This document shows, piece by piece, positions 30,068-36,305 of a stretch of DNA of 64,000 bases; within the stretch, counting starts at the first letter, position 1, and each line of letters opens with the position of its first letter. Made by a program: the position numbers and the translations under genes. This stretch comes from Winogradskyella echinorum (GTDB lineage: Bacteria; Bacteroidota; Bacteroidia; Flavobacteriales; Flavobacteriaceae): the NCBI RefSeq assembly GCF_014297365.1, contig NZ_JACOQD010000001.1, positions 1,550,001-1,614,000 on the forward strand, read 5' to 3'. Under the pieces are notes generated by a model. The model was not told the DNA's origin and ran no database searches. It saw only the letters and a program-made list of their open reading frames with translations.

Positions 30068-31092
30068 TTTTTTGTTGAACCTCTTTTAATAAGCTTTGTT
30101 TCTAATTCTATAGTTTTTAATTTTATAGGTGAATTTTGTTTTCTGTTTTTAATCTCCTTATATAAAAGTTTAAAGGCTTCTTTACCCATTTCATATCCAG
30201 GTTGGTTGATTGTGGTTAAAGTAGGTGATATAACAGAAGACATAAACCAATTACTAAAACCAACGACAGAAATATCCTCAGGGATCTTAATTCCTAATTT
30301 GTTAAATTCAGTAATAGCACCAATAGCCACCATATCTGTATTAATAAAAATACCATCTACATCTGTATGGTCGTTTAACAATTTTCTCGCACTCTCTTTA
30401 CCTTCTTCAAAGCTATTGTCACCACATTCACAGATATAGACTAAAGATGGATCATAAGGCAAACCGTTATCTGTTAGAGCTTTTTTATAACCTAAAAAAC
30501 GATCAATTGAATTTTGTGGTAAAAGTGGCCCTCTAAAGTGTGCAATACGCTTACAGCCAGTGTCAATTAAATGCTGTGTAGCCGTATAAGCTGCTTTACG
30601 ATCATTAATTATAACCTTAGAACAATTAACGATTTTTGCAATTTTGTCAAACATTACCAGAGGTAAGTCTTGTGAAATTAAATCATTAAGGTGTTTAAAA
30701 TTACCAGTTCCATTAGCAAGAGAAATAAGGATGCCATCTACTCTTTTGCTTAATAATAAATCAATTTGTTTCTTTTCAAGTTCATAAGATTCATTGGATT
30801 GAAGAATTATAACCAGATAACCTTTTTTTTCAGCTCTAGCAATAATTCCCTTAATTACACTTGAAAAAAAATGATGTACAACTTCAGGAATTATAAGACC
30901 TATTGTTTTTGATTCTTTAGTTCTGAGATTAACTGCAAATGCATTTGGTTTGTAGTTGAGAAGATCTACAGTTTCCTTTACCAAGCGTTTAGTCTTTTTA
31001 CTAACATCTGGGTAATCTTTTAGGGCTTTTGAAACTGTTGAAACAGACATATTTAATGTTTCAGCAATTTGTTTTAGGGTTACGGGTTTCAT
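30064..31092 (-). CDS. LacI-family transcriptional regulator of the sugar locus
   Basis: 342 residues from the ATG at 31092. An upstream in-frame extension to 31206 is rejected because it would run through the operators and lacks family similarity. The N-terminal helix-turn-helix is '[28 protein letters not shown]', followed by the hinge '[20 protein letters not shown]' and a periplasmic-binding-protein-like effector domain (about 60-335). Twin palindromes of the LacI type lie immediately upstream. It is divergent from the TonB receptor-transporter-kinase-phosphorylase genes, so it most likely controls them, probably as a sucrose-responsive repressor. Confidence 0.93.
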
Positions 31093-31111: not shown

Positions 31112-31119
31112 CAAATATA
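31112..31119 (-). promoter_or_regulatory. Possible -7 box of the LacI-type regulator gene
   Basis: TATATTTG on the minus strand fits TAnnTTTG and lies 20 bases before the regulator start. No clear -33 TTTG is seen, but operator 1 occupies the region just upstream where it should be, which would allow autorepression. Confidence 0.4.
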
Positions 31120-31126
31120 ATAAAAT

Positions 31127-31160
31127 CGAAAACGTTTTCGGTGAAACGAAAACGTTTTCG
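31127..31160. promoter_or_regulatory. Twin LacI-type operators
   Basis: Two perfect 14-base palindromes CGAAAACGTTTTCG, at 31127-31140 and 31147-31160, have centres 20 bases apart, about two helical turns, so two dimers would sit on the same DNA face. The central ACGT flanked by AAA/TTT is the classic LacI/PurR/CcpA-family operator form. They lie between the regulator and the TonB receptor gene and presumably regulate both. Confidence 0.85.
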
Positions 31161-31170
31161 ATGAGAATTC

Positions 31171-31202
31171 TTTATTTTTTTTTACACATAAATATAAATT
31201 TG
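31171..31202 (+). promoter_or_regulatory. Probable promoter of the sugar-locus receptor gene
   Basis: TTTA at 31171-31174 (one off consensus) and TAAATTTG at 31195-31202, spaced 20 bases. Operator 2 ends ten bases upstream of the -33 element, so regulator binding could block polymerase or, less usually, help it. Confidence 0.5.
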
Positions 31203-31246
31203 ACAAATATTAAGCTAATAAAATACTAATTAAACAACTTGATGAA

Positions 31247-34029: not shown

Positions 34030-35358
34030 ATGTTAAAGACAAAACCTAAATTAAGCTTCTGGCAAATACTCAATATGAATGTTGGGTTTTTCGGAATTCA
34101 GTATAGCTTTGGTCTACAACAAAGTGCTGTAACACCAATTTATGATTTCTTAGGTGCTAGTCCAGATCAAATTCCGATATTACATCTCGCTGGGCCAGTT
34201 ACAGGATTATTAGTTCAACCTATTATTGGTGCTTTAAGTGATAAAACATGGAGTCCAAAATTCGGAAGAAGAAAGCCATTTTTCTTAATTGGAGCAATTT
34301 TATGTAGTTTAACTCTATTAGCTTTCCCGTTTAGTAGTAGTTTATGGATGGCTGCTGGTTTACTCTGGATTTTAGATGCAGGTAATAATACAGCAATGGA
34401 ACCTTACAGAGCTCTTATTGCAGATAATCTAGATGATGAGCAACAACCTTTAGGTTTTCAAATGCAAAGCTTCTTTACTGGTTTGGGGCAAGTTTTAGCT
34501 AATTTATCATTGTTTATCTTTCCTATGATTTTTATAGGAATGACTGGGTCATTACCAACTTGGGTATATGCTTCCTTTTTCTTAGGAGCGTTTTGTTCTA
34601 TAGCTTCAATATTATGGAGTATTAGTAAAACAAAAGAAATTCCACCAACTGATGAAGAGTTGGCAAAATTAAAAAGTGAAAAACGAAGTGTTTTAGGGCC
34701 CTTGATAGAAATTTTTGCCGCCATAAAAGATATGCCAAAAGTAATGTGGCAGTTAGCATTGGTATATTTATTTCAATGGTATGCTTTATTCTGTTACTGG
34801 CAAAATTCATCAAAAAGTGTTGCCCTTTCTGTTTGGAATGCAACACCTGATAATAAAGAAGCTTATAGTGAGGCAGTAAGCTGGACAGGTCTCGTTAACG
34901 GTTGGTACAATGTGGTTACTTTTTTGGTAGCATTTGCTTTAGTTGGCTTTGCGAAAAAGTACAGTGCAAAAAGGGTGCATGCCTTTTGTTTACTTATAGC
35001 TGCAATAGGTTTTTTAGCTTTCCCTCATATAGAAAACAAAAACTTATTATTTTTTGCAATAACAGGTTTTGGTATTGGATGGGCAAGTATGATGGGTATA
35101 CCATATTTGTTGGTAGTTTCCGAAATTCCAAAAGAAAGGTATGGAGTATATATGGGAATTATTAATATGATGATTGTTGTACCAATGATTTTGCAAACTG
35201 TATCATTCGGTTATATTTTAAAACATTTTTTAAATAATGATCCACGTCAAGCTATAACATTTGCTGGAGTACTTTTAATCATTAGCGCCGTTTTGACGAT
35301 GCTTATTAAGAATAAAAAAACATCAGATACTATTATACCACCATCAACAAGTCACTAA
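34030..35358 (+). CDS. MFS sugar transporter (SLC45/GPH-like), probably sucrose
   Basis: 442 residues with twelve predicted membrane helices. 'GPVTGLLVQPIIGALSDKTWSPKFGRRKPFFLIG' is the conserved loop between helices 2 and 3 with the R-R-P-F motif of sucrose and maltose H+ symporters of the SLC45/GPH group. A central cytoplasmic loop lies near residues 195-230. The neighbours (receptor, kinase, GH13_18 enzyme) support sucrose as substrate; maltose is possible on family grounds alone. It would carry the sugar across the inner membrane intact, as the cytoplasmic phosphorylase requires. Confidence 0.9.
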   Translation: MLKTKPKLSFWQILNMNVGFFGIQYSFGLQQSAVTPIYDFLGASPDQIPILHLAGPVTGLLVQPIIGALSDKTWSPKFGRRKPFFLIGAILCSLTLLAFPFSSSLWMAAGLLWILDAGNNTAMEPYRALIADNLDDEQQPLGFQMQSFFTGLGQVLANLSLFIFPMIFIGMTGSLPTWVYASFFLGAFCSIASILWSISKTKEIPPTDEELAKLKSEKRSVLGPLIEIFAAIKDMPKVMWQLALVYLFQWYALFCYWQNSSKSVALSVWNATPDNKEAYSEAVSWTGLVNGWYNVVTFLVAFALVGFAKKYSAKRVHAFCLLIAAIGFLAFPHIENKNLLFFAITGFGIGWASMMGIPYLLVVSEIPKERYGVYMGIINMMIVVPMILQTVSFGYILKHFLNNDPRQAITFAGVLLIISAVLTMLIKNKKTSDTIIPPSTSH

Positions 35359-35378: not shown

Positions 35379-36305
35379 ATGAAAAACATAGACATTCTAT
35401 GTGTAGGCGAAGTCCTAATAGATTTTATCGGACATCAAAAAGATGTTCAAATTAATAATACGAGAGATTATCATAGGTATTTAGGAGGTTCACCTACTAA
35501 TGTGGCCATGAATTCGGCAAGGTTAGGATTAAATTCTAAAATGGTAGCCAGTGTTGGCGATGATGGTTTTGGCGAATACATCTTTGAACGATTAAATGAA
35601 GTTAATGTAAATACACAATCCATTTCTAAAATAGAGAAAAAACCAACTAGTGTAATCTTTGTTTCTAGAACTCAAAATACACCAGAATTTATACCTTATC
35701 GCGAGGCGGATTATTTTATTTTAGAAGATCAAATTTCTAGGGAGCTATTAAAATATACTAATATTTTTCATACTACATGCTTTGCTCTTAGTAAAAACCC
35801 TGCTCAATCAACTATATTGACAAAAGCTGAAGAAGCTTTTAACTTAGGCTGTCAGTTAAGTATTGATATTAATTATGCCGATGAGCTTTGGGACGATAAA
35901 GAGGAAGCGCTAAGAGTAATTTCAGCGTATTGCAAATTTAATCCATTAATTAAAATTAGTGAGGACGATATGCTTAGGCTTTTTGAGCGCAAATTACCAC
36001 ACAATGAAATTTTTGAATTTTTTCATAACGAAGGAGTCGACACAATATGTTTAACATTGGGTAGTAAAGGTGTTAAATTAGCTCAAAAAAATAAAGAAAC
36101 TATACAATTACCAGCCATAAAAGTAGATAATGTAATGGATGCCACTGGCGCTGGTGATGCATTTTGGTCTGGATTCTTATTCGCTTACATTAAAGAAAAG
36201 CCTAGTAAGGAATGTCTAGAGGTTGCTTTGCAATTGGCGGCCCTAAAACTTCAAAACGTTGGAAGACTACCAGATAACATCGATATTTTATCTAAACTTT
36301 TATAG
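35379..36305 (+). CDS. PfkB-family carbohydrate kinase, probably fructokinase
   Basis: 308 residues. It begins 'MKNIDILCVGEVLIDFIG' and has the first PfkB signature 'YLGGSPTNVAMNSARLG' (about 32-48) and the second 'DNVMDATGAGDAFWSGFLFA' (about 250-269), including the catalytic Asp in GAGD. Next to a sucrose phosphorylase-like gene, the likely substrate is fructose, giving fructose 6-phosphate. It has no signal peptide and is cytoplasmic. It lies 20 bases after the transporter and 25 before the phosphorylase. Confidence 0.88.
   Translation: MKNIDILCVGEVLIDFIGHQKDVQINNTRDYHRYLGGSPTNVAMNSARLGLNSKMVASVGDDGFGEYIFERLNEVNVNTQSISKIEKKPTSVIFVSRTQNTPEFIPYREADYFILEDQISRELLKYTNIFHTTCFALSKNPAQSTILTKAEEAFNLGCQLSIDINYADELWDDKEEALRVISAYCKFNPLIKISEDDMLRLFERKLPHNEIFEFFHNEGVDTICLTLGSKGVKLAQKNKETIQLPAIKVDNVMDATGAGDAFWSGFLFAYIKEKPSKECLEVALQLAALKLQNVGRLPDNIDILSKLL

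Follow-up and report, generated by a model that had tools for sequence, protein, structure and literature searches.

The divergent sugar locus of Winogradskyella echinorum raises the question of which protein reads two identical palindromes that lie between a gene for a LacI-family regulator and a gene for a TonB-dependent receptor, and how a single pair of sites might act on transcription in both directions.

The operator pair and its locus

Both copies of the 14-mer palindrome are perfect and their centres are 20 bp apart, as the initial annotation had it (Table 1). Within the window, that is, the whole stretch of 64,000 nucleotides that was analysed, these two are the only matches to CGAAAACGTTTTCG with up to two mismatches (0.13 expected; two such matches were reached in none of 100 shuffles). 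CGAAAACGTTTTCG is an even palindrome with a central CG, the form given for LacI-family sites in the accessible part of a comparative survey (PMC4052901), and binding by the adjacent regulator is a plausible reading of it. The profile that best describes each single site is the 18-bp AnCGAAAACGTTTTCGnT, which leaves 2-3 bp between the two sites.

Table 1. Features of the divergent locus (positions in the window; promoter elements are predictions)
Feature	Position	Strand	Basis or remark
LacI-family regulator, 342 aa	30064..31092	-	PF00356, PF00532, PF13377
Predicted regulator promoter, -7 box TATATTTG	31112..31119	-	sequence; starts 7 bp from operator 1
Operator 1, extended 18-bp form AnCGAAAACGTTTTCGnT	31125-31142		
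Operator 1, distal to receptor promoter, centre about -73.5	31127..31140	.	exact palindrome CGAAAACGTTTTCG
Operator 2, extended form	31145-31162		
Operator 2, proximal to receptor promoter, centre about -53.5	31147..31160	.	exact palindrome CGAAAACGTTTTCG
Predicted receptor promoter, -7 box TAAATTTG	31195..31202	+	exact TAnnTTTG; starts 34 bp beyond operator 2; placed at -12 to -5
TonB-dependent receptor with CarboxypepD_reg domain, 876 aa	31247..33877	+	Pfam
MFS transporter, sucrose/proton symporter-like	34030..35358	+	PF07690; TIGR01301 108 bits, below cut-off 511
PfkB-family sugar kinase, perhaps fructokinase	35379..36305	+	PF00294
Sucrose phosphorylase (GH13-like), 575 aa	36331..38058	+	TIGR03852 342.1 bits, above cut-off 334.4

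The regulator has the domains of the LacI family, namely a helix-turn-helix segment (37.4 bits against a cut-off of 27) and the sugar-binding core, and among solved structures CcpA scores best with it, followed by PurR. Its mechanically called reading frame extends across both operators to a TTG at 31206; the ATG at 31092 is taken as the start, given that the alignments with homologues begin at this codon. The best-matching model for the MFS protein is the sucrose/proton symporter, albeit under its cut-off, and the PfkB-family kinase matches both fructokinase (PRK09434, 129 bits) and 5-dehydro-2-deoxygluconokinase (TIGR04382, 184 bits), in each case below the cut-off. Together, the receptor, the transporter, the kinase and the phosphorylase probably constitute a set for sucrose uptake and phosphorolysis. 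A homologue of the sucrose phosphorylase is absent from the fetched stretch in 13 of 36 doublet loci, one of which lies at a contig end. Across the loci L083-L118, receptor and MFS classes mix, and the regulator and the doublet stay constant: compared with the proteins of the window, the receptors are mostly 48-53% or 78-91% identical (62-63% in two loci) and the MFS proteins mostly 52-56% or 84-97%, so that from these sequences the sucrose-type locus looks mosaic.

The expectation that such a doublet would make the regulon easy to predict genome-wide was not borne out. With one mismatch allowed, the 14-mer is found at 8 places in the genome compared with 9 for the reversed control; such matches are therefore uninformative, and a genome-wide regulon derived from them was rejected. 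The exact 14-mer stands at 5 places in the whole genome, both copies of the pair included, and a search for the 34-bp pair that tolerated up to three mismatches found it once. The pair is an operator of a single locus, and each genome that has it has one copy.

Conservation of the pair among orthologues and paralogues

Exact pairs, sought at any gap of 0-30 bp, are present in 26 of 397 genomes of Flavobacteriaceae, one in each, with a gap of 7 bp in 19 genomes and of 6 bp in 7 (centres 21 and 20 bp apart, respectively). In Winogradskyella the pair is found in 12 of 68 genomes, again one in each, and in Bacteroidia in 3 of 395 genomes, all three of them Flavobacteriaceae; no doublet outside this family was found among the 395. 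The reversed controls gave 0 in each of these sets. Because these genome sets were found through the pair, the fair sample consists of the closest 80 of 166 relatives that were picked by the regulator protein alone (77-87% identical). Here the best pair at a gap of 0-40 bp was sought, and 78 of the 80 orthologous loci contain the pair, with a gap of 7 bp in 51 and of 6 bp in 27; the exceptions are L228, which has one near-exact site, and L286, which has none. Free spacing was not found in any of the 78 pairs. The spacing stays as the letters drift, for example in CTAAAACGATTTAG-6-CTAAATCGTTTTAG and CGAAATGGTTTTCG-7-CGAAAACCATTTCG.

The history of the pair was followed on a tree that covers 100 regulators (a fast maximum-likelihood search with SH-aLRT support and no bootstrap, the pair being defined by a gap of 6 or 7); L098, which has no LacI gene, was left out of the 100 rows, and nine rows with no site of up to two mismatches were set aside for the tree. 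In one branch (SH-aLRT at least 95), 54 of 55 regulators have the pair; the one without it, L168, is the second of two LacI copies in its genome, and the other copy, L163, does have it. At least seven switches between gaps of 6 and 7 are required on this tree. Thus, in this group, only double sites about two helical turns apart are found (54 of 55 regulators and 78 of 80 loci, spacing 20 or 21 bp). Among more distant homologues, a single exact site is frequent; L166, L174, L176 and L177, in which the best pair has another gap (11, 10, 40 and 40, respectively) and one site with 3-4 mismatches, were counted as single, and about 14 lower-scoring LacI matches (52-58% identity) lie outside the fetched loci. 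The comparison of the spacer in relatives that the initial annotation had called for accordingly shows the pair conserved with its locus, and supports its description as LacI-type operators of a divergent sugar locus, at a spacing that would let two dimers sit side by side. Although the clade is one family and its rows are therefore not independent, a chance repeat, or a relic kept by common descent only, can practically be dismissed given the null counts in both shuffles and reversed controls, the divergence of the spacers at kept length and the recurrent gap changes.

Two other patterns were considered in these loci. Mirror-image co-change of both sites was seen (e.g., L115, L159 and L195) but is not claimed as a pattern, since direct-repeat changes occur too (L209, L262 and the Arenibacter loci). 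Independent tree pairs that would link the pair with the sucrose label are too few among the 100 regulators, and the rows L179, L207 and L211, which have a single site and are labelled sucrose-like, contain only distant or weak matches to the kinase, the MFS transporter or GH13.

A LacI gene adjoins the pair in 35 of 36 doublet loci. At L098:9505 (G153:C59:23504), an exact pair with a gap of 6 precedes a TonB receptor/SusD gene pair, and no LacI homologue was found beside it in the 19 kb fetched; on the same contig, about 29 kb away, a 58% identical LacI homologue has its own drifted pair with a gap of 7.

The core site also occurs at other genes. One exact copy (C1:697439) has a second LacI gene on one side and a TonB receptor/SusD gene pair on the other, with GH65 and MFS genes at the same locus, a composition that suggests a maltose-type locus; another (C1:33449) precedes an alpha-amylase gene, and the copy at C1:1073411 is flanked by a gene for a secreted M43 peptidase and by one for an ABC-transporter ATPase, with no sugar gene noticed nearby. 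Because the core stands at the locus of another LacI gene as well, the 14-mer alone does not define a regulon. Moreover, 4 of the 6 LacI helix-turn-helix segments of the genome share STVSKAL, which we take to be the part that reads DNA; the paralogues may therefore not be told apart by the core site alone. Hence the pair might mainly be read by a paralogue such as the regulator at C1:697k, the more so as the flanks of the two loci differ on one side only within W. echinorum (CACG..CGTT at C1:697k). We consider this improbable: the pair travels with the regulator of its own locus in all but one of the 55 members of the clade, and the flanks are AnCGAAAACGTTTTCGnT at the pair, whereas all 5 relatives of the paralogue's locus have CACGAAAACGTTTTCGTG.

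At the C1:697k-type site itself, a fixed box is not claimed, one-mismatch boxes being found at both 36 and 46 in the W. echinorum genome and 5 relatives. In 5 of 5 relatives (L046-L050) the single operator of this type is followed by a TGACnnnnGTCA inverted repeat that is missing from W. echinorum. Another LacI-family gene of W. echinorum, near the LacI gene at C1:43347, stops after a frame of about 173 aa (G000:C1:41298-41435, L015) and looks truncated.

Register to the two promoters and the proposed mode of action

Promoters of Bacteroidota are of an unusual -33/-7 type. In the Flavobacterium psychrophilum promoter map, as far as its text was accessible, the -7 box is placed at -12 to -5 and TAnnTTGY is the SM5 box (PMC9723704). 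With offsets measured from where operator 2 ends, an exact TAnnTTTG box stands at 34 in 13 of 58 loci, at 35 in 8 and elsewhere in 1 (0.04 expected per position). When one mismatch is allowed, a box is present at 34 or 35 in 47 of these 58 loci, 35 of which were found via the doublet itself and which overlap the protein-chosen set in organisms, and in 32 of 41 genera, compared with a mean of 1.99 and a maximum of 9 in 2000 letter shuffles; in five of the other 11 loci (L099, L100, L101, L107 and L192) this place is taken by TAnnTTGY. The protein-chosen set gives the same picture, with a box at 34 or 35 in 65 of 78 loci and TAnnTTGY in 5 more, the exact boxes being located at 35 in 13, at 34 in 11 and elsewhere in 2. 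The distance of the pair to the predicted receptor promoter is thus fixed, as in a phase-dependent regulator. Median identity of the spacer is only 0.50 at offset 34 (23 loci; 0.35 when shuffled) and 0.43 at offset 35 (22 loci; 0.34 when shuffled), so its length is kept more than its sequence. The operator centres given in Table 1 lie 1-2 bp further upstream in other loci. Compensation between gap and box offset is not visible (gap/offset 7/35 in 17 loci, 7/34 in 15, 6/34 in 10 and 6/35 in 5). A box at 35 is also found, with one mismatch, at the pair of L098 that has no LacI neighbor and, in exact form, at G716.

The placement of operator 2 just upstream of a -33 element of the receptor does not hold, as no recognisable element is found there: TTG occurs near -33 in 2 of 47 boxed loci (5.4 expected). 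At 86 ordinary boxes, TTG shows no enrichment (12 observed, 10.1 expected), so its lack here says little and was rejected as evidence for activation.

On the opposite side, operator 1 covers approximately -33 to -20 of the predicted regulator promoter. Here the one-mismatch boxes scatter among loci, clustering at 5-7 and at 15-18 bp from operator 1, and the start codon lies at distances that range from 24 to 139. The two clusters are about one helical turn apart. The initial annotation had suggested that one pair could set both directions; the two directions are not equivalent, the distance being variable on the regulator side and 34 or 35 on the receptor side. For the receptor promoter, the term operator is used here without implying repression. 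Because operator 1 overlaps the regulator's own predicted promoter, autorepression is likely whether the regulator activates or represses the receptor gene.

With moderate confidence, we propose that the pair serves as operator for the LacI-family regulator encoded next to it, which would repress its own gene and contact RNA polymerase at the receptor promoter, activation being likelier than inhibition. Two regulator dimers, each occupying an 18-bp site, would be neighbors on the same face of the DNA and would probably help each other bind. To the left, they would cover the -33 region of the regulator promoter and should repress it; to the right, both would be upstream of the entire receptor promoter, at a distance that is constant to within 1 bp, and might directly touch the polymerase. 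Such a contact is suggested by the promoter distance, which is held to one bp as the sequence drifts. Activation is favored on two grounds: neither site intrudes on the core promoter, and a similar register is seen in related regulators that serve other receptors. The signal would be sucrose or a product of sucrose.

A lesser but substantial probability goes to a classical sucrose-inducible repressor that, when free of sucrose, would bind the pair and repress both promoters, acting at the receptor promoter through contact inhibition or a block of the alpha-CTD region, and would be released by sucrose. SuxR, the repressor of the analogous sucrose locus of Xanthomonas, works in this manner according to expression tests in the accessible part of PMC1790865, and GalR bound at -60.5 (OE, E. 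coli gal) represses galP1 by contact inhibition and activates galP2, the sign being set by the DNA face (PMC4693257, accessible part). The coverage of the regulator's own -33 region by the same pair fits repression as well. However, neither operator overlaps the core receptor promoter, and simple occlusion requires no fixed register.

Single-site homologues and comparison with known systems

Among the regulators that are 52-61% identical (17 profiled loci), 11 of 17 have the G of a -7-like box at an offset of 61 relative to the single site, and a receptor-sized frame (989-1039 aa) begins within 150 bp after the box in 13. The 63-72% identical regulators (15 loci) have a -7-like AAATTnG, mostly GAAATT[AC]G, that ends at offset 62 in 14 of 15; this box is unsure as a receptor promoter because the next receptor-sized frame lies 303-360 bp further on in 6 of these loci and none was found within 400 bp in the others. 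Given that in doublets the G of the box is located 61-63 bp from operator 1 (10, 20 and 17 loci, respectively), the single site appears to match the distal operator in register to within about 2 bp, a step that is weaker than the doublet result because these boxes fit TAnnTTTG poorly. The 63-72% group keeps an AAAAn6TTTT element centred at the would-be operator 2; in the 15 single-site loci among L160-L177, an A-tract with six invariant A and this element are conserved between the operator and the -7-like box (L174, with runs of N, was left out of the single-site profile). Tentatively, and at lower confidence than the proposal for the pair itself, the regulator subfamily could consist of polymerase-contacting activators with an ancestral distal contact site at about -73.5; the sucrose branch would then have gained the perfect second site, 20/21 bp away, as a spacing code by which one of several paralogues with a common recognition helix distinguishes its own promoter from those of the others.

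The twin operators of raf flank a -35 box, and CcpA activates at ackA. Double sites only, at 21-22 bp, have been described for RafR of Enterobacteriales and ScrR of Burkholderiales and read as obligatory cooperative binding (PMC4052901, accessible part); the geometry is the same in the flavobacterial group, but the spacing is 20 or 21 bp, and the phyla and orthologous groups differ. According to the same partial source, the LacI-family regulators PckR and Cra both activate some genes, the mode of PckR being predicted from site position; these are global regulators of central metabolism, in contrast to the flavobacterial regulator of a single local sugar locus. GalR at OE resembles the proposed model in that a LacI-family dimer upstream of a promoter contacts the polymerase; its sites, however, are 113 bp apart and are paired by looping. 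The sux locus of Xanthomonas campestris likewise combines a LacI regulator, a TonB receptor, an inner-membrane sucrose transporter and a sucrose enzyme, which is an amylosucrase in place of the flavobacterial sucrose phosphorylase and kinase; in the accessible part of that paper, the Xanthomonas receptors are stated to have no very significant similarity to those characterised in Bacteroidetes, and a double operator is not mentioned (PMC1790865).

Sucrose regulators of the LacI family were assigned to Proteobacteria, Firmicutes and one lineage of Actinobacteria in the 2014 survey, as far as its text was accessible (PMC4052901). Among the literature matches listed, no flavobacterial sucrose LacI operator was found, and none is described in the accessible parts of PMC5507952, PMC9723794, PMC10766802 and PMC4332637; nor did the literature searched include a paper that shows LacI-family action at -33/-7 promoters of Bacteroidota. 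Already known are LacI-family activators, double LacI operators at such spacing, and sucrose loci in which a LacI regulator accompanies a TonB receptor. Within the literature searched, three things are new: the flavobacterial group itself, a 20/21 spacing that is strictly kept across many genera, and the fixed register relative to the target promoter.

With two distances frozen and the rest drifting, the 78 loci are a ready natural test of contact-type control by LacI-family regulators, and the same series also tests how paralogues with a common core site stay apart. Finally, the locus offers a candidate sucrose-responsive promoter for marine flavobacteria.
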